A stretch of DNA of 64,000 nucleotides from Thermanaerovibrio velox DSM 12556 (lineage in GTDB: Bacteria > Synergistota > Synergistia > Synergistales > Synergistaceae): assembly GCF_000237825.1 (NCBI RefSeq), contig NZ_CM001377.1:62001-126000 (forward strand), written 5' to 3'. The position numbers and the translations under genes were made by a program. The notes below the pieces were generated by a model. It worked only from the letters and a program-made list of their open reading frames with translations. It had not been told where the DNA came from and made no database searches. Numbering within the stretch: the first letter of the stretch is position 1; each line of letters starts with the position of its first letter. Below, piece by piece: positions 1,502-25,645 of the stretch.

Positions 1502-2644
1502 GTGCCCCGCGAAATCCTGATCGTTACTACCGTGGCGTTAACCATAGAGTCATTCCTGATCCCCTACGCGGAGGAGCTTCGCCGCAGGGGATGGACCGTA
1601 TGCACCGCCGCCCAAGGGGCCATGAAATCCCCGACCATAAGAGATGCCTTTGACGCGGTCTTCGATGTGCCTTTCGCTAGGAACCCCCTGGCCATGCGCA
1701 ACCTAAGAGCGGGGTTCCTGATGCGGGGAATAACAAGATCCCGCAGTTTCTCTCTGATCCACGTACACACTCCGGTGGCCTCTTTCGTCACCAGGCTTGC
1801 GCTGGGCCCCATGAGGAACAGGGGTAGGGAGAAGGGCGTTAAGATCCTCTACACCGCCCATGGCTTCCACTTTCATCCCCATGGTAAGCCGGTGACCAAC
1901 TTCATTTTCGAAACCCTGGAGAGGGTGGGATCGCCGTTCACCGACGTCCTCTTCGTGATGAACCGTTATGACCTTGCCAGGGCTCGTGAGATGAGATTAG
2001 CTCCCCGGATAGAGTTCGTCCCCGGCGTGGGGGTGGACCTGTCTTTTTTCGATCCCCCCGCGGTGGGGGCTGATGAGGTGTCATGCCTGCTTGGGGAGCT
2101 TGGCATCCCAGGTGGGCTGCCTTATTTCGTTTACGTGGCAGAGTTCAACCCAGGCAAACGCCACTCGGACCTGGTGGAGGCCATGGGATTGGTCCGGCGG
2201 GACTGCTGCGTGGTCCTTGTGGGGGATGGCCGGTTGCGCTCCAATGTGGAGGCGATGGTGTCTCAAGCAGGGCTTGCTCACCGTTTTAGGTTTGCGGGCT
2301 TCAGGAGAAGGGAGGAAGTGAGGGCACTGCTTAAGGGTTCTTCCGGGCTGCTATTCCCGTCGAGCCGAGAGGGGCTGCCAAGATCGGTTATAGAGGCCAT
2401 GGCCATGGGCAAGCTGGTCATAGGGGCGGACTCCAGGGGCACGGTGGACCTTCTGGAGGAGGGCCGGGGATGGCTGTACCCAGTTGGAGATGTTCCAGAG
2501 CTTGCCCGTCTCATCGAGAGGGCCCTTGATGAACCCCGTGAGGCCCAGGAAGCCGGCGAGGCCGCCAGGGATTATGTGGTGCGGAACATGGACGTGAGGA
2601 AGCTTGTTAGTTCATATGCGGATCTCTGCGAGTCGTTGATCTGA
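1502..2644 (+). CDS. Group 4 glycosyltransferase (PglA/EpsD-like)
   Basis: The protein is 380 residues with GT-B architecture. The N-terminal domain carries HTPVASFVTRL and YTAHGFHFHPHGKP, typical of bacterial PglA/EpsD-type GT4 enzymes. The C-terminal domain has the conserved EX7E element in SSREGLPRSVIEAMAMGK. The GTG start lies five bases after the aminotransferase stop, so the two are co-transcribed. The PglA-like family adds the second sugar onto undecaprenyl-diphosphate-bacillosamine at the cytoplasmic face of the membrane. The gene ends convergently against the PglD-like gene. Sugar specificity cannot be read from sequence. Confidence 0.82.
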   Translation: MPREILIVTTVALTIESFLIPYAEELRRRGWTVCTAAQGAMKSPTIRDAFDAVFDVPFARNPLAMRNLRAGFLMRGITRSRSFSLIHVHTPVASFVTRLALGPMRNRGREKGVKILYTAHGFHFHPHGKPVTNFIFETLERVGSPFTDVLFVMNRYDLARAREMRLAPRIEFVPGVGVDLSFFDPPAVGADEVSCLLGELGIPGGLPYFVYVAEFNPGKRHSDLVEAMGLVRRDCCVVLVGDGRLRSNVEAMVSQAGLAHRFRFAGFRRREEVRALLKGSSGLLFPSSREGLPRSVIEAMAMGKLVIGADSRGTVDLLEEGRGWLYPVGDVPELARLIERALDEPREAQEAGEAARDYVVRNMDVRKLVSSYADLCESLI

Positions 2645-2693
2645 TTTTGATGACGCTTGGGATGTGTGGATGCCCAAGGCCCATTGGGCTCGC

Positions 2694-3335
2694 TCAAGGG
2701 GCTGCCTTGTGTATAGGCCTTGCGGGACAGCCGGCCACGACGGTTTGCTCTGCCACGTCCCGTATCACCGTGCTCCCTGCCCCTACGGTGCTCCAGGGAC
2801 CTATGGTCCTGCAGGGTATTACCGCGGAGCCTATGCCAACGAACGCCCCCTCTCCAATCCTTACGCCCCCCGCTAGGCTGCATCCTGGGGCTATGTGGGC
2901 GAAGTCCCCTATCACGCAGTCGTGGTCAACCTTGGCGCCGGTGTTGACTATGCAGTGGCGTCCTAGGCTTGAACCCGGTTGAACAACCGCTCCGGCAAAT
3001 ACGACGGTCCCTTCCCCTACCTCCACGGAGGGGTGAACGTAGGCGGTGGGGTGAACGGCCCTTATCCACTCCACGGAGAAGCCCTGTGACCTCAACCGTT
3101 CCTCGATATCCCTGCGGGCCTTGTTGTCTCCCACGGCTATCACGGCCTGGAAGGGTCTTCTTGGACTTAGGATATGCTCCGGGGCCCCAAAAACTCTGAT
3201 GCCCAGCACATCCTTCCCAAAAGAGGAGGGGTAATCATCCAGCACGCCCTCTGGGGTTAGCCCCATGTCAATCAGGGTGGATATGACCACTTTCCCGTGT
3301 CCCCCAGCTCCTATCACGTATAACGGCTTTCTCAC
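2694..3335 (-). CDS. PglD/NeuD-type sugar O/N-acyltransferase
   Basis: This 213-residue protein has an N-terminal Rossmann-like nucleotide-sugar binding part (YVIGAGGHGKVV, residues 6-17). A left-handed beta-helix of hexapeptide repeats follows (for example IVNTGAKVDHDCVIGDFAHIAPG). His in DHDCVIGD is the usual catalytic base of PglD. It ends with the trimer signature VVAGCPARPI. The family acetylates the 4-amino group of UDP-4-amino-sugars. Its ATG overlaps the PglC-like stop (ATGA), so the two are translationally coupled. Confidence 0.85.
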   Translation of the reverse strand: MRKPLYVIGAGGHGKVVISTLIDMGLTPEGVLDDYPSSFGKDVLGIRVFGAPEHILSPRRPFQAVIAVGDNKARRDIEERLRSQGFSVEWIRAVHPTAYVHPSVEVGEGTVVFAGAVVQPGSSLGRHCIVNTGAKVDHDCVIGDFAHIAPGCSLAGGVRIGEGAFVGIGSAVIPCRTIGPWSTVGAGSTVIRDVAEQTVVAGCPARPIHKAAP

Positions 3336-9111: not shown

Positions 9112-10569
9112 CTAAGGGGATAGCAGGGACTTTAACGCATCCACCAAACCCTTAGAGTCCGGGGTTTTCATGGCCACCGCCCCTCCGAAAAGGTCCATAC
9201 ACGCCTTGGCACACTCATCCCCCCAGGCCACCGCCTTGGCCCTGCCAGGAAGGCCGCCCAAGCGCCTTGACCATTCCTCCGCCAGGGCGGCGGAGCCGAA
9301 CACCACCGCCTGGGGAGGGTGATCCTCCCAGTGCTCCCTTATGAGCCCCATCCATGGGATGTCCCGGGGTTTCATCTCGTAAATGGGGATCTCCACCGGG
9401 AGGCCCCGGGCCTCCGCAACCGCCTCCACCGGTATCCTGGAGCTTCGGCGGTTACGTAGGAAGAGCACCCTCTCCCCGGGACGGATCACACCACGAAGCA
9501 GCTCCCCCAGGGACTCGCTGTTGGGCCTTTGGGGCATCAGGTCCACCCCGATTCCCGTATCCTCCATGGCCGACGCGGTGCCAGGTCCTATGGCCACGGT
9601 GGAACAGCGGATATGCCTTAGGTCCTTTATGAGATCCTTCAAGACCCGGGGGCCCCGGGGACTGGTGAAGACCAGCCAATTCGCCTCCCGCAAGCCGGCT
9701 ATCACGTCCGCCTCCTGGACGGCGGTCTCCTCCTCAAGGAGGGGCAGGGTGAAGGCGTCGGCCCCAAGGCCCTCCAACTCCCTGGCGGTGGAGTAACCCT
9801 CGCCCATCGGACGGCAAACCGCCACCTGAAGCCCCTTAAGGGGCAAGGGGGCGGGCTTCAGCTCTAGATGGGCCGCCTCCCCCAACAGGATCACCGACGG
9901 ACTTGCGAGCCTACCAGCTTCCCCCATGCCGATGGCCCCCTCCAGGGTGGTCCTCTCGAGGCATCCCCTTCCCCAGCCACCCCAGGACAGGATCCCACAG
10001 GGGGTCTGGGGGCTTAGACCCAGGGATGTCAGAAGCCTCAGGTTCCTTACAAGGCTGGATGCGGACATGTAGAGCACCCTGGATCCCTTGAAGCTCGCGA
10101 TCCCCTCGAAATAGCCTTGAGGGTCCGTGGCATCCCCAAGCTTTCCCGTAACAAGGCATAGCCCGGAGGACACCCCCCGGTGCGTAAGGGGTATGCCTTC
10201 CGCCAGGAACCCCCCGAGGGCTGCGGTTATACCCGGGACCGCCCGCCACTCAAGTCCCGCCCGGTCCAGCGCCGCGGCTTCTTCGCCGCCTCGGCCGAAC
10301 ACGAAGGGGTCACCGCCTTTAAGACGGATCACCGTTTTAAACCGCCTTCCCAGATCCACCAGCAAACGGTTTATCTCCTCCTGCTCCATCCTGTGGTCCC
10401 CGCCCCGTTTGCCCGCCTCGATGAAGAGGGCCCCCTTGGGGGCCAGCAAAAGACAGTCCGGGTGGATGAGCCGGTCGTAAACCACCGCCTGGGCCCCTGA
10501 AAGTACCTGTAAGGCCTCCAGGGTGAGCCACCTGGGGGACCCGCATCCGGCTCCTACAAGCCATATCAA
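9112..10569 (-). CDS. cobA-hemD: Fused uroporphyrinogen-III C-methyltransferase (CobA) and uroporphyrinogen-III synthase (HemD)
   Basis: This 485-residue protein has two domains. Residues 1-~235 are the SUMT methyltransferase (RLKGGDPFVFGRGGEE, VPGITAALGG, PLTHRG). Residues ~245-485 are HemD (VFTSPRGPRVL, FLRNRRSS, VVFGSAALAEEW). It closes and then methylates uroporphyrinogen III at C2 and C7 to give precorrin-2. The frame is open to 10656; I start at TTG 10569, which overlaps the hemC stop (TTGA) with GAGGGGGT 9 bases upstream and places MIWLVGAG at the normal N-terminus. The SAM-loop reads GAGCGSPRWLT where the family usually has GAGPGDPELLT. This fusion is known in anaerobic Firmicutes and relatives. 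Confidence 0.9.
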   Translation of the reverse strand: MIWLVGAGCGSPRWLTLEALQVLSGAQAVVYDRLIHPDCLLLAPKGALFIEAGKRGGDHRMEQEEINRLLVDLGRRFKTVIRLKGGDPFVFGRGGEEAAALDRAGLEWRAVPGITAALGGFLAEGIPLTHRGVSSGLCLVTGKLGDATDPQGYFEGIASFKGSRVLYMSASSLVRNLRLLTSLGLSPQTPCGILSWGGWGRGCLERTTLEGAIGMGEAGRLASPSVILLGEAAHLELKPAPLPLKGLQVAVCRPMGEGYSTARELEGLGADAFTLPLLEEETAVQEADVIAGLREANWLVFTSPRGPRVLKDLIKDLRHIRCSTVAIGPGTASAMEDTGIGVDLMPQRPNSESLGELLRGVIRPGERVLFLRNRRSSRIPVEAVAEARGLPVEIPIYEMKPRDIPWMGLIREHWEDHPPQAVVFGSAALAEEWSRRLGGLPGRAKAVAWGDECAKACMDLFGGAVAMKTPDSKGLVDALKSLLSP

Positions 10570-11507
10570 GCCCCGCAAACCCCCTCTCTGGCGGACCTGT
10601 TCAAGGCCCCTTGAAGGATCTCCCTCGCCTCCGGGGAGTCCTTGAGCTTGAGCCACGCCCGCTGACCAAGCGCCGCCGCGTCGTCCTCCCCATCGACCTT
10701 GTCCCGCAGCTCCACCGCCGATGCGGACGATCCGTCGGGGGAGAGTATCTCCGCCTTGAATGACATGATATCCCCATCAAGCACCGCGGAGGCCGCAACC
10801 GGCACCGCGCATCCCATGCCAAAGGCCTTGAGGAACTGCCGCTCCGCCAGGACCTCAAGCCAACTGTCTCGGTCACCGAGGCGCCTTGCCTCGTGGAAAA
10901 GCTCAGATCCCTCCGGCGCCTCCAGGGCAATCGCCCCTTGAGCTGGAGATGTGACGAAGGGGAGATCCCTGTAGGGAACCCTTATGTCTAGCCGCTCTAG
11001 CCCCGCCTTCGCCAGCACTATGGCGTCGAAACGACCTTCCTGCAGCTTGCTCAGCCGGGACTGGATGTTGCCCCGGCAACATATGACCTTGAGGTCTCCT
11101 CTCAGCCGCAAGACCTGGGCGGTTCTCCTGAGGCTTGAGGTCCCAACCACCGATCCCTCCGGGAGCTCATCAAGGGACAGGCCCTCCAGGTTTATTAAAA
11201 CGTCCTCCCGGGAGCCCCTCTTAAGCACCGCTGCTATGGCCAGTCCCTTGGGCTGTTCCGACGGGACGTCCTTAAGGCTGTGTACCGCTCCATGGGCGTC
11301 CCCCAAGAGCAGCCGTTCCTCCAGGGCTTTCACGAACGCCCCAAAGCCGCCGAAACACGCCAGGTGCCGCCTACGGTCCCTATCCCCATGGGTGGCACAG
11401 GTTATGAGCTTCACCGAGTGGCCCGCCCCGGCGAGATGCCTTTTCCACATCTCCGCCTGGGCCATGGCAAGGGGGCTTGAGCGGGTGAGCAGGGTAAATC
11501 GACTCAT
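10566..11507 (-). CDS. hemC: Hydroxymethylbilane synthase (porphobilinogen deaminase)
   Basis: The protein has 313 residues, normal size. It polymerises four porphobilinogen into hydroxymethylbilane. The N-terminus LLTRSSPLAMAQAEMW matches the family. The dipyrromethane-cofactor cysteine is in FGMGCAVPVAA, and KDVPSEQPKGL and RRTAQVLRLRGDL are conserved substrate-binding loops. Its ATG overlaps the preceding dehydrogenase stop (ATGA), and its stop overlaps the cobA-hemD start. Confidence 0.95.
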   Translation of the reverse strand: MSRFTLLTRSSPLAMAQAEMWKRHLAGAGHSVKLITCATHGDRDRRRHLACFGGFGAFVKALEERLLLGDAHGAVHSLKDVPSEQPKGLAIAAVLKRGSREDVLINLEGLSLDELPEGSVVGTSSLRRTAQVLRLRGDLKVICCRGNIQSRLSKLQEGRFDAIVLAKAGLERLDIRVPYRDLPFVTSPAQGAIALEAPEGSELFHEARRLGDRDSWLEVLAERQFLKAFGMGCAVPVAASAVLDGDIMSFKAEILSPDGSSASAVELRDKVDGEDDAAALGQRAWLKLKDSPEAREILQGALNRSAREGVCGA

Positions 11508-11965
11508 CGCCTAAGCCTCTTCCCCTCCAGGAACGCCCGGATCAGGGACTTTAGCTTGGCCGCCCCCGAGGGGTCCATGCCGCCGCTGGATATCCCAACC
11601 CTGAAGTTCCCGTGGCTCCACTGGGCCGCCAGGGCGAAGTCCCCTAGCTCTGGCAGGGAACAGCAGCAAACAAGACACCCGGTGCCCTCCCTAAGCTCCA
11701 GCGCTAGCCTGGTCTCCTCCGGCGGAAGCGCCAGCACCGCGAACCTGAAACGCTCAAAGTCCTGACGCTGCACGGACCGTTCCTCCCCTGACACTATCCC
11801 CTTGGAGATCAGCCTGCGCATCTCGTCGCAGAAGCTCAAGGAAACCACCGTGACCGACGCACCCCCGTCCAGGAGGCTGCAGGTCTTCCTGTATCCCACG
11901 GGACCGGCTCCAACCACCAGCACCGGCTCGTCCCGCCTTAAGGCCACCATGGGGCCGAAGGTCAT
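11504..11965 (-). CDS. Precorrin-2 dehydrogenase (CysG N-domain / Met8 type)
   Basis: This short 153-residue protein has an NAD-binding start VLVVGAGPVGYRKTCSLLDGGASV (in part) typical of the CysG N-terminal domain. The later VCCCSLPELGDFALAAQW corresponds to the family's conserved DFxxPA/ASW region. It oxidises precorrin-2 to sirohydrochlorin, needed before cobalt insertion by CbiK. It lacks the extra C-terminal helical region of Met8, so a chelatase role is unlikely. GGGGGT lies six bases before ATG 11965; hemA ends 24 bases upstream. Confidence 0.85.
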   Translation of the reverse strand: MTFGPMVALRRDEPVLVVGAGPVGYRKTCSLLDGGASVTVVSLSFCDEMRRLISKGIVSGEERSVQRQDFERFRFAVLALPPEETRLALELREGTGCLVCCCSLPELGDFALAAQWSHGNFRVGISSGGMDPSGAAKLKSLIRAFLEGKRLRR

Positions 11966-11989: not shown

Positions 11990-12859
11990 CTATGATAGTG
12001 ATATGACTCCATCACGGGCCCGGAGGGCGGGGAAACGCCCGGTCAGCTCCTCCCAAAGGGAGGTGCCCGCACCCTCCGCCGCTGCTTCAAGCCCCTGAAG
12101 CTCCTCCCGGTAGCCCCTAAGCCTTCGTCGGCTTATCCGGGCTATGTCTTCGATGCCCATGTACCTGTAACCTTCACCAGGAACCCCCTGGGGAGGGGAA
12201 CCCATGTCCACAACCCAGGTCCCGCTTCCCGCCAGATCCTCCTCAAACAGCACCGGCAGCGGGGAGGAGGTGCATAGAAAGACCCCTTGAAAGTCCCGGG
12301 CCCTGGACCTCAGGCTTTCCCAAGGGATGCACCGGAACCCCTCCGGCGGAGCGGAGGAACGGGAGGTGCATACCACCTCTGCCCCAAAGTAGGATAGCAC
12401 CTTGCAGGTCTCACGTCCCATCTCTCCCATCCCGGCCACCAGGCACGGCACACGGGGCCAATCGGGGTGCTCTTTGATTATGGACGACGCCAGGTACGGT
12501 ATCGACGGGGCCCTGCCTGGGTGAAGGGTGCTCCTTAAGCGGGAGGATATCCCGAAGGCCCTCTGGAAGAGCCTGTGAAGGATTGGCCCGCAGGATGGCC
12601 TGGAGGCCTCGTAACAGTCCTTGACCTGCCTTACTATATGGAACTCCCCGACCGCGAAGCTGTTGAGGCCGAGCATGGTCCTTATGAGTCTAAGCACCAC
12701 GCCCTCCTGGCGGGCAAGGACGACCCCCCCGGGCAGTCCTCCCAGGGAGTGTTCCCGAAGGACCCCGTAGAACTCGTCCCTCCAGCACGTCTTAACCCGT
12801 ACCCATTCCAGGGCGTCCGGGGGAAGCGAACGCGTTACCGCCAAGACGACGGGTGTCAT
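11990..12859 (-). CDS. hemA: Glutamyl-tRNA reductase, short form
   Basis: The protein is about 289 residues against ~420 for standard HemA. The catalytic cysteine region is kept but divergent (KTCWRDEFYGVL where STCNRTEVY is usual). The tRNA/NADPH core is clear: LNSFAVGEFHIVRQVKDCYEAS, SIPYLASSIIK, and Rossmann VAGMGEMGRETCKVLSYFGAEVV (in part). It stops soon after the IEDIARISRRR linker, so the C-terminal dimerisation domain is essentially missing. The ATG at 12859 overlaps the upstream gene's TGA; ATG at 12871 is also possible. The long frame continuing upstream to 13507 lies within the membrane-protein gene and is not real. It makes glutamate-1-semialdehyde for HemL. Confidence 0.85.
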   Translation of the reverse strand: MTPVVLAVTRSLPPDALEWVRVKTCWRDEFYGVLREHSLGGLPGGVVLARQEGVVLRLIRTMLGLNSFAVGEFHIVRQVKDCYEASRPSCGPILHRLFQRAFGISSRLRSTLHPGRAPSIPYLASSIIKEHPDWPRVPCLVAGMGEMGRETCKVLSYFGAEVVCTSRSSAPPEGFRCIPWESLRSRARDFQGVFLCTSSPLPVLFEEDLAGSGTWVVDMGSPPQGVPGEGYRYMGIEDIARISRRRLRGYREELQGLEAAAEGAGTSLWEELTGRFPALRARDGVISLS

Positions 12860-13776
12860 CGGTACCACCATAATCCCACCAGGGCCATGGAGAGGGCCTC
12901 GAAGAGCAAAAGGGTCCCCACGTGCCATATGGCCAGGGGGCGGAGCACCTCCGGCGGGAATATGCCCACCCAGTAGCCCATGTTCTGCCTTAAGACCCGG
13001 CTGAAGGTGCCTATGCAGTTCCCCGCCAGCAGGGCTAGGAGAGCCCCCTTTAGGGACAGCGCGCCGGAGGATAACGCCCCTTGGGCGGATGCCAGGGATG
13101 CGGAACTGTGCATCAGGGCGGAGGTCACCACCGCAAGGGCCGAGGGCGACACCTTGCCCTTCAGGGTCCCCAGCACCGCCGCCTCCAGGTGGGGCATGAG
13201 GAAGAACGTGAGGGCGAAGAAGCCCCAAGCCATGGGGAGGGAGCGCAAGGTGAGCCTTATTAAGCTGACCTCCTTCCCATGGGGATGTCCTTCGCAATTT
13301 GCCCCATGGCAGGAGTCCTGGGGCAAACCGAATGCGATGGGTTCCCCGGAGCCCCGGCGGAGGAGAAGAAGGAGACATAGGATGAAGCGGCAGGCGCTCC
13401 GGGTGATCAGCACTATGGAGTAGAGCAGTCCTAGGTTTCCCGCAAGCCCCACCGCCACCGGTGCGGTGGCGAGCCAGCGCTTTATGTAGGCCGGGAAGGC
13501 GAGGCACAGGGTCCCGAAGACCGCGTCATCCCGGGTTATGCGGCCCTCCCGGTGGGCGGAGGACAGGATGGCGGCCCCCAACCTGGGGCTGGCCACCGAA
13601 ACCGCCATGGCGGAGAGGGCGTGGCGGTTTATCCTGCATTTGGATAGAAGGTTGCGGATGGGACGGAAAACCGCGTCCGTGATCCTCAGCCTCACCAGCG
13701 CCTCCCCCGCCAGCGCCCCCGCAAGGATGCTGGCGGTGAGCCTGGCCTCCGCAAGGAGAAGCCCTTTTATCTCCAA
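12856..13776 (-). CDS. Polytopic membrane protein with Gate-like (nucleoside-recognition) fold and Cys/His loop
   Basis: I read 306 residues starting at TTG 13776, which overlaps the end of cbiL; no clean ribosome site is visible, so the start is uncertain. About 7-8 hydrophobic segments occur in two blocks (residues ~10-135 and ~175-305). Each block has small-residue helices like the nucleoside-recognition/Gate family (SAMAVSVASPRLGAAI, ALLALLAGNCIGTFS). The linker between them carries C156-H157-x3-C161-x2-H164-x-H166, a likely metal site. It lies between cbiL and hemA behind a cobalamin riboswitch, so a role in cobalt or corrinoid-precursor handling is a reasonable inference. No function is proven. 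Confidence 0.6.
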   Translation of the reverse strand: MEIKGLLLAEARLTASILAGALAGEALVRLRITDAVFRPIRNLLSKCRINRHALSAMAVSVASPRLGAAILSSAHREGRITRDDAVFGTLCLAFPAYIKRWLATAPVAVGLAGNLGLLYSIVLITRSACRFILCLLLLLRRGSGEPIAFGLPQDSCHGANCEGHPHGKEVSLIRLTLRSLPMAWGFFALTFFLMPHLEAAVLGTLKGKVSPSALAVVTSALMHSSASLASAQGALSSGALSLKGALLALLAGNCIGTFSRVLRQNMGYWVGIFPPEVLRPLAIWHVGTLLLFEALSMALVGLWWYR

Positions 13777-14453
13777 AGGAGCATCACCGCCAGGTAGTCG
13801 TCGGTGGGTTCCGCCGCCGCATCCCCCTCCACCGCGAACTCCCCCTCTAGCCCGACCCGATGGAGCCGGACGATCCGATCCCAAGGCCCGGAGGCGGAGA
13901 TGACTAGGGGGAGATTCTCCCCAAGGGCGGAGGGCTTGTATAGGGCGGCGCACTGGCAGGCCTTAAGGGCCTTGATGATCCCTTCGATGTCTTTAGAGCC
14001 CGGCACCACCGAGAACACCTGGTCCCTCATGGCGATGAAGCGGTTGAGCCTCGCCGCCGCGGCGGAGTGGGCGGATATGCCGGGGATCAGGCGCAGCTCC
14101 GTCTCCGTAATGGAGGACAGCTCCTGGTGGAGCACATGAACCGTGGCGTAAAGGGCGGAGTCCCCTATCACCGGCATCGCCGCGATCTTTGCCCCCTCCC
14201 AAAGGTCCTTGGAGGAGGTTAGGGACTCCCTTACGCCGGCCCTTAGCTCCTCGTCGGAGCCTGTCATGGGGAAGAGGATCGGTATGGTCTTAAGCCCCTT
14301 GATTAGGTCCCGGGCCATCTGTCCCGCCACGCTCACCCTTCCCTTGGCGGACACCGGCTCGAACACCGCCTGGGCCTTGCTCAGAACGTTAAGGGCCTTC
14401 AGGGTAACCAGCTCCTTGTCCCCCGGGCCCATGCCTACGCCGTAAAGTATCAA
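13767..14453 (-). CDS. cbiL: Cobalt-precorrin-2 C20-methyltransferase
   Basis: The protein has 228 residues from TTG 14453, which has GGAGGG seven bases upstream and gives MILYGVGMGPGDKELVTLKA, the normal tetrapyrrole-methylase start. Longer upstream reading is unlikely. CbiL features are VFEPVSAKGRVSVAG, FPMTGSDEELR, MPVIGDSALYATV and LIPGISAHSAAAARLN. It methylates C20 of cobalt-factor II using SAM. It is the first gene after the riboswitch at 14573-14723. Confidence 0.9.
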   Translation of the reverse strand: MILYGVGMGPGDKELVTLKALNVLSKAQAVFEPVSAKGRVSVAGQMARDLIKGLKTIPILFPMTGSDEELRAGVRESLTSSKDLWEGAKIAAMPVIGDSALYATVHVLHQELSSITETELRLIPGISAHSAAAARLNRFIAMRDQVFSVVPGSKDIEGIIKALKACQCAALYKPSALGENLPLVISASGPWDRIVRLHRVGLEGEFAVEGDAAAEPTDDYLAVMLLWR

Positions 14454-14572
14454 CCTGCATCCCTCCGTCCTTTTGTAGAGCGGAAGCGGAGGAGGAATGC
14501 CGCAAGTCCCCATGGTCACCGGTGAGCTAGGGGGCATTGCGCGGGGTCCCTCCCTCGAGGGCTTCCGCGGTA

Positions 14573-14723
14573 ACTTGGAGCCGTGGGGTATCCTGGCTTG
14601 CCTTCATCCTATCCCCGCCCCTTCCCAGGGGTCTAAGTCCCCCAGTGGTAACGGCGGTCTCGTCGGGCTCACAGTGGCGGGGCCGCGCCGGCTTCTCACC
14701 GGTCTTCCCCCAGGGCTCGAAGT
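14573..14723 (-). ncRNA. Cobalamin riboswitch 1 (ahead of cbiL-hem operon)
   Basis: On the minus strand the RNA shows the class hallmarks: GGTGAGAAGCCGGCGCGGCC, then CCCGCCACTGTGA, and the B12 box region GCAAGCCAGGATACC. P1 is formed by GGCTCGAAGT-type and ACTTGGAGCC-type arms at 14714-14723 and 14573-14582 with one mismatch. Downstream, GCGGAAGC (14561-14568) can pair with GCTTCCGC (14480-14487) just before the cbiL ribosome site. This suggests an expression platform acting on translation or through an alternative hairpin. Its effector is coenzyme B12 by family knowledge. Confidence 0.92.
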
Positions 14724-14755
14724 AGCGTTATCCTGTGCTATGCACCTGAAGATAG

Positions 14756-14784
14756 ATAATAGAACTCAAAACCCCATAAAACAA
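14756..14784 (-). promoter_or_regulatory. Sigma-70-type promoter for the cbiL-hem operon
   Basis: Minus strand: -35 TTGTTT (14784-14779), 17-base spacer, -10 TATTAT (14761-14756). The predicted start is about 25 bases before riboswitch P1, so the operon is transcribed separately from the upstream cbi operon. Confidence 0.6.
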
Positions 14785-14830: not shown

Positions 14831-16246
14831 CTAATATCCTAATATCTTAAGCGTCTCCCGCACCCCTTCTTCCAGCGAAAGCCCGGGATCGTTAGGGGGG
14901 CAGAGGAGTAAGAGGGGTATGCCCAGCTCCCCGCAGGCCCTCAGCTTGTCCGTCACTCCGGAGGCATCTCCGCTGCCCTTGGCCCCCACCGCCTTGGCTC
15001 CGCAACCCTTGAGGATCCCAACCTCCCAGTCATAACCCATGGGCCCCCAGGAACATAGGATCTCCTTTGGGGTAAGCCCCGCCGCCTTGGCCGCCTCCAG
15101 GCTCTCCACCGTGGGAAGCAGCCGAGCCAATACATAACGGCCGCCGCCTTTGAGCACCGGAACCACGCGGGGAAGCCCCCGCACGCCGAAGGATAGGAAC
15201 ACCGTATCACCGGGGGCTGTGAGCTCCAAAAGCCCCTGGGCCATCTCCCCGTAAGACATAACCGGCACGGCCCCTTCGGGCACATCCACCGGACGGCTTA
15301 TCCTTATCAACGGTATCTTAAGTTCCTCCGCGGCGGTTCGGAAGTGGCGCCTTGCCTCCTCCGCAAAGGGGTGTGCGCAGTCCACCGCCGCCCTGAGACC
15401 CAGGGGGAGCAGCCGCCCCATGACCTCCGCCCAGTCGTCCGCGCTCCGGCGGCCCACCAGCGCAAAGGCCCCCGGGGGCACCACATGAAGCCCCGTGTCA
15501 AAGGCCACCGATACCGCCACCTTAAGCCCCAGGGAGATCAACCTCTCCGCCGCCTCCCTGCCCTCACCGGTGCCGCCCAGGATGAGCACGTCCACCCTTC
15601 CGATCCCGTCGAGGATGTCAACCCCCTCAAGACGCGATCCGTTCTCACCTGCGGCGGCGCAGCGGGGCGGCAATCCGCATCCCGTGGAGGCACCTCCGCT
15701 GCCTGGACGGACATTTATCTCGCTGGCGTAGCCCCGCATGTCCCTCCAAACCCCGTCCTTCCCCTTGGAACAGCACCCTCCGGGGAAGACGATCAAAGAC
15801 CTCATGTCCACCTGGTCCGATGAGAGCTCCTCCGCCGGGATCTCCGCCACCCTCTCACCGGGCCTTGATACGTCGCGGCACACCAGGGCCGTGCGACCCT
15901 GGAACACCCGACGCACCTCCCCGAGCTTGCCCTCCCTGTCCCGGGAGACCGGGTTGTACAGCGCCACGGAAAGCCCCGATTCCGATGCCCTCTCCATGGC
16001 CCTTGCCACCGATCCCCAATCCTGAAGGTAATCCGAAAGGGATATCATGCAAAGCCCGTTTGTGTAATAGGGCCCCAATGAGCAGGCCGCCCCTTGAGCG
16101 GCGGATACGCCTGGGAATATCCGGAAGGACGGGCTTCCCTTGCCCCCGTCCTCATCCCCCCCCTCCCGGAGCCCCCAGGCCGCGTGATGTGACGCCAGCG
16201 CCGCAAGCCCGAAGAGCACCGGGTCCCCGCCGCACACCAGCGCCAC
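14831..16246 (-). CDS. cbiJ: CbiH C-terminal half fused to precorrin-6A reductase CbiJ
   Basis: This 471-residue reading frame begins inside CbiH: VALVCGGDPVLFGLAAL is the conserved second block of precorrin-3B C17-methyltransferase. FPGVSAAQGAACSLG and ISLSDYL follow, to about residue 175. From ~residue 213 it is CbiJ (DVLILGGTGEGREAAERL, DCAHPFAEEARRHF, LLPTVESLEAAK), the NADH-dependent precorrin-6A/cobalt-precorrin-6A reductase. The CbiH N-terminus is in another frame ending at 16251. Deleting one G from the GGGG on the coding strand (16255-16258) joins them as one CbiG-CbiH-CbiJ reading frame. As it stands, the GTG at 16246 lies five bases after the TAG and could only give a headless CbiH. 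Confidence 0.85.
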   Translation of the reverse strand: MALVCGGDPVLFGLAALASHHAAWGLREGGDEDGGKGSPSFRIFPGVSAAQGAACSLGPYYTNGLCMISLSDYLQDWGSVARAMERASESGLSVALYNPVSRDREGKLGEVRRVFQGRTALVCRDVSRPGERVAEIPAEELSSDQVDMRSLIVFPGGCCSKGKDGVWRDMRGYASEINVRPGSGGASTGCGLPPRCAAAGENGSRLEGVDILDGIGRVDVLILGGTGEGREAAERLISLGLKVAVSVAFDTGLHVVPPGAFALVGRRSADDWAEVMGRLLPLGLRAAVDCAHPFAEEARRHFRTAAEELKIPLIRISRPVDVPEGAVPVMSYGEMAQGLLELTAPGDTVFLSFGVRGLPRVVPVLKGGGRYVLARLLPTVESLEAAKAAGLTPKEILCSWGPMGYDWEVGILKGCGAKAVGAKGSGDASGVTDKLRACGELGIPLLLLCPPNDPGLSLEEGVRETLKILGY

Positions 16247-16250
16247 CCGA

Positions 16251-17456
16251 CTAGCCCCTTTGGGCCAGCTCCACCGCCCTCTTGACCCTCGCCTCCTCCT
16301 CTCCCATGCGGTAGGACTCCACCAGCTTGACTTCTTGGAGGTGCTTGGGCAGCAGGTCCACGTAAAGGGAGTACCCCACGATCACGTCGCACTCCTCAAG
16401 CTCCCTCAAAGCCCCCAGGGTCATGTGGTCCAGGTGCCCGGGGCCTATTCCAACCACCCCAAGGCGGCCCTTGAAGCCTATGTCTTCGAGGGACAGCGCG
16501 GCGGTCACGCCGTTGTGCACCATCCTGCCCCCAAGGGGCCGTCCCATAAGGGCGCTGCAGGGCTCCGCCACCCCGGGAAGCCCCAGGTGTCGTTCCGCCG
16601 CGGAGGCCGTCAGCGTCATGCCCATGGAGGCGTCTCGGATCTCATCGGAGCCGAAGAAGCGAACCCCGCATCCTAAGTCTTTCGCCGCCCTTGCAAGCTC
16701 CTTGGAGCTTCTCTTGCCCTCCCATGTGCCGATCTCCAACAAGGCTTCCCTGAGGAAAGGCCCCTTCGGATGGGATTTGAGGGCCTCCAGGATCCCGTCC
16801 CTTATCTCCTCCCCCTTGGCGTCCCGCCTGAACCCAACCCCGGCGCAGATGCACCGGGGAACCAGGAGGATACCCGAAGGAGAGATATCCGTGAGATCCC
16901 TCACGGTGTAGAGGACCTGGGCGGCGGAGGGGTCTTCCACCGCCTCCGCCCCCTTGGGCAGGGGAGGGGAGGGGAGCAGCGGGTCCAGCCACCACCGAAG
17001 GGACCGGTGGGTGATAAGATGCCTTATGACGGAAGACAGGTTATCCCTGTTTAATACCTTCATCCCATGCCGCCTTGCCCATCGGTCGGGGGACATGATT
17101 CGGAGCCTGTCGGTGGACGTGGTGGGTATCCATGGAGCCCCCAGGGCCTCGGATACCAGAACCGCCAGGTCTGTGCCGCCTCCGAGGTGCCCCCCCGCCA
17201 CCAGGAACACCGATGAGAGGTCCTCGGTGACGCAGAGCACCGCCGGATCCTTGCCCTTGTCCTCCAATAGGCCCGACACGGCCCTCACCGCGATGGGGAG
17301 CGCCCCTACGAATAGAATGCCCTCCGCCCGGTCCCAAAGGGCCCTTGCGGCGTCTTTCGCCCCCGCGGAGGGGTCGAAGAGCTCAAAACCGGTGAGATTG
17401 GCCACCAGGGTTCCCCTCTCGGAAAGGGAGCCTGGGGCCACCACGAAGACCCTCAA
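16251..17456 (-). CDS. cbiG: Cobalt-precorrin-5A hydrolase CbiG fused to CbiH N-terminal part
   Basis: Of 401 residues, about the first 325 are CbiG, which opens the delta-lactone of cobalt-precorrin-5A (FVGALPIAVRAVSGLL, VAGGHLGGGTDLA, LVPRCICAGVGFRRD, CSALMGRPLGGRMVHNGVT). From ~332 a tetrapyrrole-methylase N-terminus starts (LGVVGIGPGHLDHMTLGALREL, in part; VIVGYSLYVDLL; SYRMGEEEARVKRAVELAQRG), which is CbiH. The frame then hits TAG at 16253-16251, and CbiH continues in the +1 frame. CbiG and CbiH fusions are known. The frame break sits at a GGGG run. Confidence 0.87.
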   Translation of the reverse strand: MRVFVVAPGSLSERGTLVANLTGFELFDPSAGAKDAARALWDRAEGILFVGALPIAVRAVSGLLEDKGKDPAVLCVTEDLSSVFLVAGGHLGGGTDLAVLVSEALGAPWIPTTSTDRLRIMSPDRWARRHGMKVLNRDNLSSVIRHLITHRSLRWWLDPLLPSPPLPKGAEAVEDPSAAQVLYTVRDLTDISPSGILLVPRCICAGVGFRRDAKGEEIRDGILEALKSHPKGPFLREALLEIGTWEGKRSSKELARAAKDLGCGVRFFGSDEIRDASMGMTLTASAAERHLGLPGVAEPCSALMGRPLGGRMVHNGVTAALSLEDIGFKGRLGVVGIGPGHLDHMTLGALRELEECDVIVGYSLYVDLLPKHLQEVKLVESYRMGEEEARVKRAVELAQRG

Positions 17457-19497: not shown

Positions 19498-20580
19498 CTA
19501 AAGCCCCCTCATCGCCTCTATCATCTCCTCCAGCGGCCCAGAACGGGCCAGCTCTTGCCGGGGAAGAGAAAATGTAAGAACCGCCGCCTCCGCTCCGGAT
19601 AAGGCCTTTGCCCTGTCCCTGGCCCTGCGGCATAGCTCCTCCAGGGCCATCCTGCCTTGGATCGTGGCGGCCATTAAATTGGCCGCCTGGTCTGCGGTGT
19701 TGCACTCCATTATGCGGCGAATCCAAGACGAATTCATGCCGTGAAGGGCCCCGTAGGCGCACAGGGCCTCAAGGCGGCCGTCGCTCTTGGAGCTGTGGGT
19801 GTCCATCGAACCCGCCGCCACCTTAGCCATCTTACCCACCTGGGCGATGAAGATGAGCCCCCTGAACTTTAGCTTGGCACAGGCCTCCAGCGACTTGCCC
19901 ACGTAGTTGCTTACGTTAACGGTGAGACTCCCCGGAACCCCTAACGACGCGGCGAAGTCCCGTCCGTAGTTGCCCGGGGCAAGGCATACCAGATCAAAAC
20001 CCTCTGCCCGGATGACCGACAGCTCGGACCTTATGGTCTCCACAACCGCGTCCTCGCTCATGGGCCGTACGACCCCGGTGGTACCTAGGATGGATATGCC
20101 CCCCTCTATGCCCAGCTTGGGGTTGAAAGTCCCCTTCGCCAGCTCCTCACCCCTAGGCACCCATACCTCCACCTGGGCCCCTATGCCCCTTGGGAGGATC
20201 TCCAACAGGTTCTCCCTTATCATCCTTAAGGGGCCCGGGTTTATGGCCTTGGCCCCCACTGGAACGGGAAGCCCCGGCCGGGTCACGGTGCCCACCCCCG
20301 GACCTCCGTCCACGGTCACCCGGTCCCCCCGGTGAAGACGAACCTTGGCAGCCACCGCCGACAGGTGGGTCACGTCAGGGTCGTCGCCGGCGTCCTTGAA
20401 AACCCATCCCTGGGCACCCCCGGGGATCCGTTCACATCCTCCCAAGGGGATGGACAGCGTGCTACCGGAGGGCAGCTTGACCTTGACCCACGAGGAAGGC
20501 CTTCCAAGGAGCCAAAGAGCGGCCCCCATGGCCGCCGCCGTGGCGGCGCTACCGGTGGTGAACCCGCATCTTAGGGACAT
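19498..20580 (-). CDS. cbiD: Cobalt-precorrin-5B C1-methyltransferase
   Basis: The protein has 360 residues, normal length. It starts CGFTTGSAATAAAMGAALWL, the CbiD signature, followed by DDPDVTHLSAVAAKV, DGGPGVGTVTRPGLPVPVG and AINPGPLRMI. GTTGVVRPMSEDAVVETI is a second signature. It methylates C1 of the ring-contracted intermediate. Its ATG overlaps the upstream TGA by one base. Confidence 0.95.
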   Translation of the reverse strand: MSLRCGFTTGSAATAAAMGAALWLLGRPSSWVKVKLPSGSTLSIPLGGCERIPGGAQGWVFKDAGDDPDVTHLSAVAAKVRLHRGDRVTVDGGPGVGTVTRPGLPVPVGAKAINPGPLRMIRENLLEILPRGIGAQVEVWVPRGEELAKGTFNPKLGIEGGISILGTTGVVRPMSEDAVVETIRSELSVIRAEGFDLVCLAPGNYGRDFAASLGVPGSLTVNVSNYVGKSLEACAKLKFRGLIFIAQVGKMAKVAAGSMDTHSSKSDGRLEALCAYGALHGMNSSWIRRIMECNTADQAANLMAATIQGRMALEELCRRARDRAKALSGAEAAVLTFSLPRQELARSGPLEEMIEAMRGL

Positions 20581-21539
20581 CAGCGGACCTTCCTCCCAAG
20601 GGCCTCAAGGGACTTCAAGGCATCGTTAAGCCTTATCAGGGACGGACGAGATATGGCCCTCTCATCCACCTCAAACACGTTGCCGCGCTTAACCGCCTCC
20701 ATGGGGCGGAACCGGGGGTCCTCCAAGAACTCCTTGGCACCCCCGGGGTTCATGGGCCCCCGTTGCACCAGTATCACGTCCACCTTTTGGTTGATCAGAA
20801 GAAGCCTCTCCGGCCCGAACTGAGCCACCGCGCTCCCCTTGGAAGTGGGCTTTAGGTCCTCCGCCGCGGGGTTGAGCCCCGCGGCCTCCATGAGCCGGTG
20901 CGGCCAGCTCCCGGGGACGCAGGTGGTGATATCCCTGGAGTTTACCACCAGAAACGCCCCCTTGCGGGCCTTGTAGTTGCGCCTTCTGGCGTCCTCCAGG
21001 GTTCTAAGGGCCCCCTGGAGCTTCAAACGGGCCTCCCTCTCCCTGCCGGTTATCGTTCCAAGTCGGGTTACGTAGAGCTCGAGGCCGTCGAAGGACGGGG
21101 GATCCAGCACCACCACCGGAACGAAGGGTTCAAGGCGTTCGAGCAGTCCGGGCTGCATGGACAGCTGCAGAGACCTCATGAGCACCAAGTCCGGCTTGAG
21201 GCTCAGGATGCTCTCCGGATCGGGCCTTAGGGGAAGCCTTGGAACCCCCTTAAACAGCTCTCGGTCGTCCCCGTCCGCCACGCCCACGATGCGGCCTTTG
21301 AGCCCCAGGGCCAGCAGGTTCTCCGTGTGGGCAGGGTAGAGGGAGACTATCCTCGTCGGGGGGGATCCCAAGGTCACCCTTCTCCCCATGTCATCCACCA
21401 CGGATAACCGAGCTGCGTAGGCGGGTAGGGCCAAAAACACGAGGGATAGGACGAAGGAGGCGAGGAAAGGCGTTAAGAACTCCCTTCCCGTTGGGATCGG
21501 GCAGATCCCGGGGGAGTGGGATCGATCGCATCGGTACAT
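20580..21539 (-). CDS. BtuF/FecB-like periplasmic binding protein
   Basis: The protein is about 319 residues. A signal peptide (hydrophobic FLASFVLSLVFLALPAYA) is followed by a class-III periplasmic binding domain: SVVDDMGRRVTLGSPPTRIVSLYP (in part), ENLLALGLKGRIVGVADGD, and ILSLKPDLVLMRS. No lipobox cysteine is visible. The likely start is ATG 21539 (TTG 21542 just before); GGAAGGA lies upstream. It sits between cbiK and cbiD behind a B12 riboswitch, so cobalamin/cobinamide or a metal chelate is the likely ligand. No permease or ATPase of a BtuCD system is in the window. Confidence 0.8.
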   Translation of the reverse strand: MYRCDRSHSPGICPIPTGREFLTPFLASFVLSLVFLALPAYAARLSVVDDMGRRVTLGSPPTRIVSLYPAHTENLLALGLKGRIVGVADGDDRELFKGVPRLPLRPDPESILSLKPDLVLMRSLQLSMQPGLLERLEPFVPVVVLDPPSFDGLELYVTRLGTITGREREARLKLQGALRTLEDARRRNYKARKGAFLVVNSRDITTCVPGSWPHRLMEAAGLNPAAEDLKPTSKGSAVAQFGPERLLLINQKVDVILVQRGPMNPGGAKEFLEDPRFRPMEAVKRGNVFEVDERAISRPSLIRLNDALKSLEALGRKVR

Positions 21540-21647
21540 CAAGGGTCAACACTTCCTTCCAGAGGTTTGAGCGGTCCCTGGGGGCTGCTCAAAAAAGAGC
21601 CCCCGGGGGAGGCGGTCACCTCCTGCCTCAGGGGCCCCATGTCAGGA

Positions 21648-22556
21648 CTAGAAGCCCGCCTCCTCGGCGGCCTCCTTCAGGTGCTCCACCAGAAGGGCCC
21701 TTATCTCCGGGTTCTCCCCCAGACCCTTCAGGTGCGCCTCCGCCTTTATGCCCTCCTTGGAGAGCACGTTTATCCAAGAGTCCTCCTCGTCCCCCGCCAT
21801 GTCGTTGTGGGCGTGGTCCCCCGCCACCAGCATCAGGGGCGCCAGGATCGCCCGCTTGATACCCTTGCCCTTCAACTGGGAGATCACGTCCTCCAAGGAC
21901 GGTGTCCCCTCCACGGTGCCCACTACGAAGTTGGGGTGCTTCCGCTGGAGCACCGTTTGAAGCCTGGCGTAGGCCCCTTCCGCGGGATGGGGTGAACCGT
22001 GACCCATGAGGACCACTCCCCGCCGTGGGTCCTTGCCGAAGGCCCTGCCCAGGATGGCGGACACCCGCTCGTAGTCCTCGGGGGACCAAAGCAGCGGCTT
22101 GCTTAGGGCTATGCCCTCAAACCCGCTCTTGCTCCCGTGTTCCCTTAGGTAACGGAAGGCCCCCACCACCGCGGACAGGTCGTCATACTCCTCCCCGGGG
22201 ATCACGTGGGTTGACAGCACCGCCACGTTCGTGTAGCCCTCTTCATGGAGCTTGGCCAGGGAGGTAATAGGATCCAGGAAGACCTTCCCCTCCTTTGCCA
22301 ACTTGCGCATTATTATGCGGCTGGTGAAGGACAGCCGCACCTCTGTGCCGGGGAACGCGTCCTTCACGGACCGGAATACCGCGTCTATGGCCCTCTGTCC
22401 CTCCGGCATGGAGCTGCCGAAGGCCACCACCAGGACGGCGTTCTTCTTCTCCACCTTCTTCCCCTCCGATGCAAGGGCCCTTTGAGGGTGCGCAAAAGCC
22501 CCCATTAAGCTTAGAACAAGCGCAAGAACTGATATAAACTTCCTCATTTGACCCAT
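21648..22556 (-). CDS. cbiK: Sirohydrochlorin cobaltochelatase CbiK, exported form
   Basis: The protein has 302 residues. Residues 1-~31 form a signal peptide (MRKFISVLALVLSLMGAFA...RALA). The CbiK domain follows: NAVLVVAFGSSMPEGQRAID (in part), STHVIPGEEYDDL with the first conserved His, VLMGHGSPHPAEGAY, and the metal-site LMLVAGDHAHNDMAGDEEDSW. The chelatase puts Co2+ into sirohydrochlorin, first committed step of the anaerobic pathway. The start ATG 22556 has GGGAGG four bases upstream. A periplasmic CbiK (CbiK-P) is known in Desulfovibrio; here it is the only CbiK in the window. Confidence 0.92.
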   Translation of the reverse strand: MGQMRKFISVLALVLSLMGAFAHPQRALASEGKKVEKKNAVLVVAFGSSMPEGQRAIDAVFRSVKDAFPGTEVRLSFTSRIIMRKLAKEGKVFLDPITSLAKLHEEGYTNVAVLSTHVIPGEEYDDLSAVVGAFRYLREHGSKSGFEGIALSKPLLWSPEDYERVSAILGRAFGKDPRRGVVLMGHGSPHPAEGAYARLQTVLQRKHPNFVVGTVEGTPSLEDVISQLKGKGIKRAILAPLMLVAGDHAHNDMAGDEEDSWINVLSKEGIKAEAHLKGLGENPEIRALLVEHLKEAAEEAGF

Positions 22557-23302: not shown

Positions 23303-23416
23303 TGCACTTTCCCTCCCTTCTTCGGGGGTCTCAACCCCTGAGGTTTAGCCCCGAGGGGTACAGAGGGAAGGCGTTCCCACCGGAGGCGCCCGCCCGCGCA
23401 GGCAACCTTCCCCATC

Positions 23417-23560
23417 ACCTCCGGCCGGTCTCCTGGCTTGCCTTCATCCTACCCCGCCCCTTCCCAGGGGTTTAAGCCCCCCAGTGGTAACGGCGGTCTC
23501 GTCGGGCTCACAGTGGCGGGGCCGCGCCGGAATCTCACCGGTCTTCCCGTTCACCGGAGG
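23417..23560 (-). ncRNA. Cobalamin riboswitch 2 (ahead of cbiC-cbiJ operon)
   Basis: On the minus strand P1 is CCGGAGGT-side/ACCTCCGG-side (23553-23560 with 23417-23424, perfect 8 bp). The class core follows: GGTGAGATTCCGGCGCGGCC, CCCGCCACTGTGA and the B12 box GCAAGCCAGGAGACC. The central ~110 bases differ from riboswitch 1 at only a handful of positions. Downstream to the cbiC start, TCGGGG/CCCCGA and neighbouring GC-rich arms can form the expression platform, but I cannot resolve it by eye. Confidence 0.93.
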
Positions 23561-23573
23561 TGTCAAACAAGAT

Positions 23574-23603
23574 TGTATAACCGTTACCCTAACGCCACGT
23601 CAA
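23574..23603 (-). promoter_or_regulatory. Promoter for the cbiC operon
   Basis: Minus strand: -35 TTGACG (23603-23598), 18-base spacer, -10 TATACA (23579-23574). The -35 lies inside the last codons of the ZIP gene. Predicted start is ~23567, a few bases before riboswitch P1. Confidence 0.55.
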
Positions 23604-24423
23604 GGATCATCATGCAGATGAAGCCAAGTATTACCCCCATTGTGGCCAGATCACCGTTGTCCTCCGACTGGGACTCCGGTATCACCTCCTCCACCACCAC
23701 GTATATCATGGCACCGGCGGCGAAGGACAGGGCGTAGGGCAGCCCCATCCGCATGGACTCCACCGAGAGGGCCCCTATGGCGGCGAAGATCGGCTCCACC
23801 ACCGCGGAGAGCTGGCCGAAGAAGAACGCCATGGACCTGGAGAACCCGGCGCTCCTCAGGGGCATGGATACCGCAAGCCCCTCCGGCAGGTTTTGAAGCC
23901 CTATGCCAAGGGTAAGCGCCAGAGCGCCGGAAAGGGTGGCGGAGCTCGAGAGTCCCGCGGCCCCGAAGGCCACCCCGAAGGCCAGTCCCTCCGGTATGTT
24001 GTGAAGGGTTATGGCCAGCACCAGGAGGGTGGTCTTCCTCAGATGGGACTTGATGCCCTCCGGCTGGCCCCCCTTGAGGGCCGGGTGAAGGTGGGGCAGA
24101 AGCAAGTCCAGAAGCCTTAAGAAGAGCGCTCCCCCCAGGAACCCCGCGGAGGGGGGAAGCCAAGGCGTGAGCCCAAGCTCTTGGGACATCTCTATGGCGG
24201 GGGACAGCAGGGACCAGAAACTGGCGGCTATCATGACCCCGCCGGAGAAGCCCAGCATGAAGTCCAGCATCTTCCTGGATGGGTTAGCCCCGATGAAGGC
24301 CATGGCGGCACCAATGGCTGTGAGCCCCCACGTGAGGGTCCCGCCCAAAAGGGCCTGAAGGGACGGGGAAAGGGACCTGAACCAATCAAGCCCGGAGCCT
24401 GTGAGGAGAGACCAGCTTCCCAT
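23584..24423 (-). CDS. ZIP-family metal transporter (ZupT/GufA-like)
   Basis: The protein is about 279 residues with eight predicted membrane helices. Two metal-site motifs of the ZIP family are present: LAITLHNIPEGLAFGVAFG and LGIGLQNLPEGLAVSMPL. The second has Gln where many have His. The variable loop has LLPHLHPALKGG. GufA-type ZIPs import Zn2+ and other divalent metals. I start at ATG 24423 with AGGTGAT just upstream; the frame is open far upstream only because of a frame break in the ZnuA-like gene. It overlaps or abuts that gene's true stop at 24429, so the two form a metal-uptake pair. Confidence 0.88.
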   Translation of the reverse strand: MGSWSLLTGSGLDWFRSLSPSLQALLGGTLTWGLTAIGAAMAFIGANPSRKMLDFMLGFSGGVMIAASFWSLLSPAIEMSQELGLTPWLPPSAGFLGGALFLRLLDLLLPHLHPALKGGQPEGIKSHLRKTTLLVLAITLHNIPEGLAFGVAFGAAGLSSSATLSGALALTLGIGLQNLPEGLAVSMPLRSAGFSRSMAFFFGQLSAVVEPIFAAIGALSVESMRMGLPYALSFAAGAMIYVVVEEVIPESQSEDNGDLATMGVILGFICMMILDVALG

Positions 24424-24428
24424 GGGGA

Positions 24429-25359
24429 TCACCTTGTTCTCATCGAGTCCGCGAAGGCCTTGGCGGTTTGGCGCATCATCTTGAACCAGTCCGCCTCCAG
24501 CGGATCCAGCTCCACCGGCTTCACCCCCAACATCGCTGCGGCCCCTTGAGCGGAGCGTCCGAACATGGAGGGCTGCACGAACATCACCCGTATCCCTAGG
24601 CTTTGAACCTTTGACCTCAGCTTTGACAGCTCCTTGGGCCGGGCCTCCATCCCCTCCGATTCCACCGCCAGGGGGATTACGCCCCCTCTCGGCGCAGAAG
24701 TAGTTCCAGGCGGGGTGATACGCCAGCACCGCCCGGCCCTTGAAGGGCCCCAGGAGGGCCGAGATCTCCTTGTCCAGCCGGTCCATCTCCCCGAGGAGCT
24801 TCGCCAGGTTGGCGTCGTAAAAAGACCCGTTGCTTGGATCCAGGGACTTTAGACCCTCCGCCATCGAGCGGGCCATGGCCCTTCCGTTGGACAGGGAGTT
24901 CCACACGTGGGGATCGAAGGATTCCCTATGCCCCGGCTTGTCACCCTTCCCTTCGTGAGCGTGGCCATGCCCTTCAAGCTTGGAGAACTTAAGCCGCATC
25001 ACCCTAACCCCATTGGCCCTCAGCTTGGGCAGAAGTGATTCCTCCAACGGCAGGCCGAGGTAGAAGATCACATCCGCCTCCGATACCGCCTTGGCGTGGC
25101 TTGGGCGCATCTCGAACGAATGGGGATCCGCCCCTTGGGGTATGAGGGTCACCACGTTGACCCGATCGCCCCCTATCCTCCTCGCCAGGTAGGACACCGG
25201 CTCAACGGGACACAGGACCGTAAGCCCTTTGACGCCCCCTTGAGCCCATGCGGGGCCCAAGGGAAGGACAAGGCCGACAAGCGGGGCAGAGAGGACCAAA
25301 GCCTGAAAAACAAGAGCAACGGAGATGAGCAGCAAACGGCGGTGCTTAACTTCCCTCAT
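24429..25359 (-). pseudogene. ZnuA-like metal-binding lipoprotein/periplasmic protein, frameshifted
   Basis: A signal peptide (LLLISVALVFQALVLSA...AWA) is followed by a cluster-A-I metal-binding protein. His ligands are in GADPHSFEMRP, FDPHVWNSL and AYHPAWNYF, plus a His-rich loop KLEGHGHAHEGKGDKPGH. After YFCAERG the frame breaks at a G5 run (complement of 24682-24686). The true C-terminus (VIPLAVESEGMEARPKELSK... to ADSMRTR) is in the +1 frame and ends at 24429. Removing one G restores the whole protein. Start ATG 25359 has AGGGTGAT and AAGG upstream. Likely ligand zinc or manganese. No ABC permease or ATPase follows; a ZIP gene does. The break may be a base-calling error. Confidence 0.8.
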
Positions 25360-25645
25360 CGCCTTATCACCCTCTCTTGAAAAACTATTTTTGATTTCGT
25401 CGCGGTTCATTATAACCCATCGTACCGTCCATAAAAAACGGCCGGGTGAATTTGGTGATACATGCCAAAATCTTTAGCGCTATCAAGCCCCACCGCAGCG
25501 GTGGGATTTGGTACAATCCGAGGGGATGGATTGCGAAGGTTCGTTGTCGCTCTTCGTGAGCGTTTTCATGAATTGGGTTCGGTGCCGGCGTGGGAGAAAG
25601 GTGCGGTGATGTCGCTTGAGGCCGAGGGTTGTAGGGGGATCCCGC

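Follow-up and report, generated by a model that had tools for sequence, protein, structure and literature searches.

A divergent CbtX-like gene paired with cbiL in a riboswitch-headed operon of Thermanaerovibrio velox: a probable corrin-pathway transporter whose cargo may be a tetrapyrrole or cobalt

The cbiL-X-hemA operon

Within the window, a stretch of 64,000 nucleotides from Thermanaerovibrio velox DSM 12556, the open reading frame at 12856..13776 (-) is a real frame of 306 amino acids, beginning at a TTG codon and with its stop codon included in these coordinates. We call its product X, and use the same name for its family in the Synergistota. The TTG start overlaps the stop codon of cbiL (13767..14537 (-), likely real start the TTG at 14453), which encodes the precorrin-2/cobalt-factor II C20-methyltransferase, and hemA (11990..12853 (-)) follows close behind. 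A sequence-only reading of this DNA had placed the gene between cbiL and hemA, and profile matches of both neighbours bear this out. The operon is headed by a cobalamin riboswitch (RF00174, 79 bits) at 14566..14761 (-) ahead of cbiL; hence X, correctly placed by that reading in the first positions after a riboswitch, is the second gene of the operon and should be repressed by B12. HemA is short and divergent, at approximately 287 amino acids, and the glutamyl-tRNA reductase model was matched (E 2e-13) only over positions 84-262 of 416. Beyond hemA lie a sirC-like precorrin-2 dehydrogenase domain (11504..11965 (-), PF13241) and, at 9112..11507 (-), hemC and cobA-hemD, named by position and sequence, which are tetrapyrrole genes supplying sirohydrochlorin.

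A second cobalamin riboswitch, at 23406..23573 (-), heads a run of genes ordered cbiC-cbiK-SBP-cbiD and onwards. This includes cbiK (21648..22556 (-)), encoding a sirohydrochlorin cobaltochelatase with an N-terminal signal peptide and hence predicted to be periplasmic, and a BtuF/FecB-type periplasmic binding protein (20580..21542 (-), PF01497). Two coding regions in the window appear disrupted. CbiH seems to extend over two frames at 14831-17456 (-), with profile positions 2-69 ending the cbiG frame and 73-220 starting the cbiJ frame, as if through a frameshift near 16250. At 23584-25410 (-), a single frame of 608 amino acids matches ZnuA over residues 65-243, followed by a ZIP transporter (to 603); the ZnuA match ends after two-thirds of its profile, as if a frameshift had fused two genes, and the frame is possibly a metal-uptake pair just upstream of the second riboswitch. 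The sequence-only reading had seen no classical cobalt importer in the window, which holds insofar as neither the whole genome nor the genus has CbiM (PF01891), but must be qualified by this ZnuA-ZIP frame. Elsewhere in the genome, a cobalamin riboswitch (locus L002, 1501-1669 (+), 98 bits) stands directly 5' of an aconitase-family gene (1840-3168 (+)), which is an unusual target, and further riboswitches precede EutB (L003), a TonB-dependent receptor (L005) and a region whose genes include one for a binding protein (L006).

Spread, structure and relatives of X

Homologues of X were found in 93 of the 185 Synergistota genomes by protein search, with an equal count from a profile search, and each genome carries a single copy once split or partial matches are set aside. 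A search of plasmids with the protein returned none. Candidate gene fusions suggested by long open frames were rejected: the homologous part ends at a normal stop, and the residues added upstream resemble out-of-frame sequence of high G+C content. CbiD, a marker of corrin-ring synthesis, occurs in 110 of the 185 genomes and coincides with X in 85 (Fisher p 2.5e-20), although such tests ignore shared ancestry and their p-values therefore overstate independence. CbiK is present in 113 genomes, including 87 of the 93 that bear X, and several of the eight genomes with X but no CbiD are incomplete assemblies. A better argument than the p-values is the variety of gene orders around a constant cbiL-X pair. 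In 79 of the 93 loci, cbiL lies directly upstream on the same strand, overlapping X in 15, with gaps from -4 to 354 bp, while the surroundings may be hem genes, as in the window, or the recurrent order cbiK-btuC-btuD-btuF-cbiL-X-cbiC-cbiD, or a lone cbiL-X pair with a GGDEF gene behind it. Cobalamin riboswitches are also found in seven further X-bearing loci (L089, L090, L093, L097, L098, L101 and L105). The sequence-only reading had guessed at a cobalamin link and proposed checking for co-occurrence with cbi genes; the link is stronger than was guessed, and dedication of X to cobalamin synthesis is strongly supported. As to other neighbours, the gene for a GGDEF diguanylate cyclase follows cbiL-X in genus g37 (L108, 9634-10530 (+), and related loci), and in two genomes, G045 and G082, the GGDEF gene still adjoins cbiL but X is cleanly absent.

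An AlphaFold model of X, built from an alignment of 26 rows, has a mean pLDDT of 86.6 and shows a two-repeat layout, each repeat with about five helices (at 3-141 and 172-305), in agreement with the two helical blocks described previously. The linker between them (148-168) holds every cysteine and histidine of the supposed metal loop, is almost wholly below pLDDT 50 and is predicted to be disordered. The residues themselves, C156, H157, C161, H164 and H166 (codons 156-166, 13279..13311 (-)), are present as the sequence-only reading described them. However, the set is confined to the window protein among 63 distinct family members, its columns being variable or gapped elsewhere, and a homologue 74% identical to the window protein (L014) lacks all five. 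The loop is best regarded as a variable hinge between repeats, and the case for cobalt that had been built on it falls on the ground which that reading had itself named, namely want of conservation of these residues among homologues.

The conserved residues of X are instead basic. All 63 sequences have K or R at position 65, R100 (FPxYxxRW; 13477..13479 (-)), R or K at 130 (R itself in 97%), R260 and R263 (RxxR; 12988..12999 (-)), and R126 is kept in 92%; R126 and R130 (RSxxRF; 13387..13401 (-)) lie mid-helix, and in the model the arginines from R100 to R263 all sit in the middle parts of long helices. Five membrane-embedded arginines are kept across the family. No Cys, His, Met, Asp or Glu is invariant in the 63 sequences, nor is any Cys or Met conserved, the best-kept acidic residues and histidine being E10 (94%), D34 (D or E in 95%) and H223 (84%). 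Conserved metal-ligand residues were found neither in the membrane part nor in the Cys/His loop.

The relatives of X are remote. The window protein matched no Pfam family at E <= 10, leaving the cut-off of Gate (PF07670) unmet, and had no usable match in NCBIfam. A scan of genome contigs with the single protein returned no relatives, and with an alignment returned Synergistota only; a search of solved structures with the X profile returned nothing. The A1 profile did match proteins outside the Synergistota, with E 2.5e-30 in G207 and more weakly in G205 and G352. The G207 protein passes the Pfam Gate model (30.5 bits against a cut-off of 29.6), and its homologues, which we call family Y, occur in 33 of the 148 genomes of a second phylum. 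X and Y are homologous from end to end (hhalign 99.9%, E 3.8e-31) at approximately 20-22% identity. The earlier description of X as Gate-type therefore stands at the level of the superfamily, through the profile and the Gate-positive G207 protein, but not as a direct Pfam match. About ten Y loci adjoin cbiL, cbiC, cbiD or cbiK, the full loci having the order cbiC-cbiL-Y-cbiD-cbiET-cbiF, and in one (L281) a cobalamin riboswitch has Y as its first downstream gene. In a tree, the X sequences group on a long branch as a single, fully supported clade (100/100), and the cbi-linked Y sequences do not form one. Y shares R260, nearly invariant there, and R263, which is invariant. H100, E223 and H264 of Y correspond to R, H and Q in X, so that Y could hold a cation site and X less readily.

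Structural comparison gave a leading match that is not decisive. The best VIA-align partners of the X model were structures of concentrative nucleoside transporters (CNT), at Z 11.3 (8tzd) and 10.6 (5l2a) over 263-264 of 306 residues, in a method where helical bundles can reach Z 13 by chance, and a Foldseek search of the model against the PDB gave no match at E <= 0.001. Profile homology supports the assignment of X as a putative transporter of the Gate/CNT superfamily, and the fold does so weakly. CbtX (COG3366), described from delta-proteobacteria and archaea, is a hypothetical membrane protein whose gene clusters with cbiK and which was predicted in 2004 to be a cobalt carrier (PMC545781; PMC2667541). 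Judged by locus context and the published description, Y fits CbtX. Hence the idea of a new cobalt handler is only partly new, a Gate-superfamily protein beside cbiK having already been proposed as a cobalt transporter (PMC545781). Taken together, X is very probably a transporter dedicated to corrin-ring synthesis that belongs, as a divergent branch, to the CbtX-like Gate superfamily.

Cobalt insertion and the cargo of X

The route of cobalt to the corrin ring in bacteria without CbiMNQO is an old gap that has so far been filled by predictions, such as that for CbtX. What X might contribute depends in part on where cobalt is inserted. The window CbiK begins MGQMRKFISVLALVLSLMGAFAHPQRALASEG, by inspection a Sec-type signal peptide, and nearly all of the Synergistota CbiK N-termini that were read have one, as judged by hydrophobicity only; those without are in G005, G034, G080, G108 and G113. 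A periplasmic cobaltochelatase is already known in CbiK-P of D. vulgaris (PMC4063343). On plasmids of Calditerrivibrio, Sulfurospirillum and Ilyobacter (L197, L199, L200), CbiK, mostly with a signal peptide, is followed by permease, ATPase and binding-protein genes without X, and this association of CbiK with an ABC cassette across phyla hints at widespread periplasmic cobalt insertion.

The distribution of CbiM bears on the same question. X occurs in 19 of the 23 CbiD-positive Synergistota genomes that lack CbiM and in 66 of the 87 that have it, PF01891 not separating CbiM from NikM. The sequence-only reading had proposed checking whether homologues lack CbiMNQO; there is no anti-correlation, and X therefore does not appear to be a simple replacement for that system. 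The exclusion test is uninformative for the second phylum, since CbiM-family genes are almost ubiquitous there (118 of 148 genomes). Only two of the 40 CbiM-family loci scanned have a B12 riboswitch, those of G034 and G108, and in both genomes CbiK has no signal peptide. The loci scanned from genus g37 have no riboswitches at all, so its CbiM loci do not count and this part of the argument is uninformative. A NikK-like DUF4198 gene (by HMM in G034, by eye in the others) precedes the CbiM gene, and the operon heads resemble nickel systems. These observations support, without proving, the view that, where CbiK is exported, no B12-regulated importer of cobalt into the cytoplasm is needed. In G034, where CbiK is cytosolic, a cobalamin riboswitch heads a DUF4198-NikL-like-CbiM operon (L294, 423-2638 (+)), apparently a nickel-type ECF system recruited for cobalt.

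We slightly favour an anionic tetrapyrrole, sirohydrochlorin, carried for periplasmic cobalt insertion, over import of Co2+, because the arginines are kept, strict metal ligands are lacking and the signal-peptide CbiK is encoded next to a periplasmic-binding-protein importer. On this tentative reading, which we hold at rather less than even confidence, X is the Synergistota branch of the CbtX-like part of the Gate/CNT superfamily, made with CbiL from a B12-repressed operon, and would serve cobalt insertion by carrying an anionic tetrapyrrole; its substrate, direction and elevator mode of transport are all inferred. Sirohydrochlorin would be made in the cytoplasm by HemC, CobA-HemD and SirC. 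X would then carry it to the periplasm along a path lined by the conserved arginines, which would bind its carboxylates, and exported CbiK would insert Co2+ there. Insertion of cobalt outside would require export of sirohydrochlorin and re-entry of cobalt-sirohydrochlorin; X could do the first, and the BtuF-type binding protein with its ABC importer could do the second, delivering the product to CbiL. It is a more doubtful proposition, and on balance an unlikely one, that many diderm anaerobes insert cobalt outside the cytoplasm in this way, with export of sirohydrochlorin by X, metallation by periplasmic CbiK and return by a BtuCDF-like ABC importer. If true, it would account for B12 being made where no B12-regulated cobalt importer exists, and a Gate-type 'cobalt transporter' would be a tetrapyrrole exporter.

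Several observations count against such a shuttle. G034 keeps X, conserved residues included, yet has a CbiK that lacks a signal peptide and an operon that lacks an ABC importer. Conversely, CbiK is exported but X is absent in G045, G060, G082, G100, G101 and others, and other phyla combine signal-peptide CbiK and ABC cassettes without X. With exceptions both ways, strict coupling of X to exported CbiK was rejected, and X is neither necessary for the proposed shuttle nor exclusive to it. Elevators of the CNT fold usually carry small substrates, which counts against a tetrapyrrole cargo, and the histidines and glutamate of cbi-linked Y could be metal ligands.

The same residues of Y lend themselves to the main alternative, which was the view of the sequence-only reading and follows the published prediction for CbtX, namely that X imports Co2+, supplying CbiK and CbiL under B12 repression by the riboswitch. 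We regard this as only slightly less likely than the tetrapyrrole reading. It accords with the fit of Y to COG3366, predicted from clustering with cbiK (PMC545781), with cobalamin genes in a genus that has no CbiM, with the retention of X beside a cytosolic CbiK in G034, and with the gene for a CsoR/RcnR-type metal repressor that lies beside X in L101. (This gene, at 9724-10026 (-), is divergent and stands right after X in a locus of the cbiK-btuCDF-X type.) Set against it are the unconserved metal loop, the replacement of the Y ligand candidates by Arg, His and Gln in a protein with five arginines lining its helices, the lack of exclusion between X and CbiM among CbiD-positive genomes, and the consideration that an exported CbiK would not depend on cobalt in the cytoplasm.

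Import or export of a different B12-related compound, for instance cobinamide, a corrinoid or the nucleoside alpha-ribazole, through a nucleoside-transporter fold is unlikely. The leading place of CNT proteins in the fold comparison, the BtuCDF-like neighbours and the B12 riboswitch would suit it, but the loci that we read tie X to early ring genes (cbiK and cbiL) rather than to genes for the lower ligand, nearly all CbiD-less genomes are without X, and in one locus (L124, G164) X accompanies cbiK-sirC-hemC-cobA/hemD-hemB where no CbiD or CbiL was found. Very improbable is an accessory membrane protein without transport, for example an anchor channelling cobalt-sirohydrochlorin to CbiL, for while the almost invariant cbiL pairing with often overlapping frames would fit, full-length homology to the Gate/CNT transporter superfamily and the few X loci without an adjacent cbiL do not.

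X is a phylum-wide family, defined by sequence and nearly invariant in its pairing with cbiL, and a tetrapyrrole shuttle around a periplasmic chelatase provides a clear alternative to the label of cobalt importer. The tetrapyrrole and cobalt-import readings predict opposite outcomes for rescue by Co2+ and for the location of CbiK.

Comparison with known systems

Of the known systems, CbtX is the closest, in that X is homologous over its full length to Y, a B12-linked Gate family of approximately 320 amino acids with two repeats, encoded beside cbiL, cbiC, cbiD or cbiK. X differs from this CbtX-fitting family in its low identity to it, in forming a clade of its own and in the substitutions at positions 100, 223 and 264. 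The Gate family in Pfam, which takes in FeoB and other two-repeat membrane proteins, is connected to X through the linking family that passes its cut-off, whereas the window protein itself does not match. The predicted fold of X aligns with the CNT structures over most of its length, but at only 7-12% identity and at a Z below what helical bundles can reach by chance. CbiK-P of Desulfovibrio vulgaris resembles the window CbiK in combining a signal peptide with a CbiK match; as a soluble chelatase it is a partner of X rather than a relative. Finally, the CbiMNQO and NikMNQO systems of the ECF type are also membrane importers, found in cobalt and nickel regulons, but no homology to X was seen, and most of the CbiM loci examined are without a B12 riboswitch, whereas X lies in an operon that begins with one.
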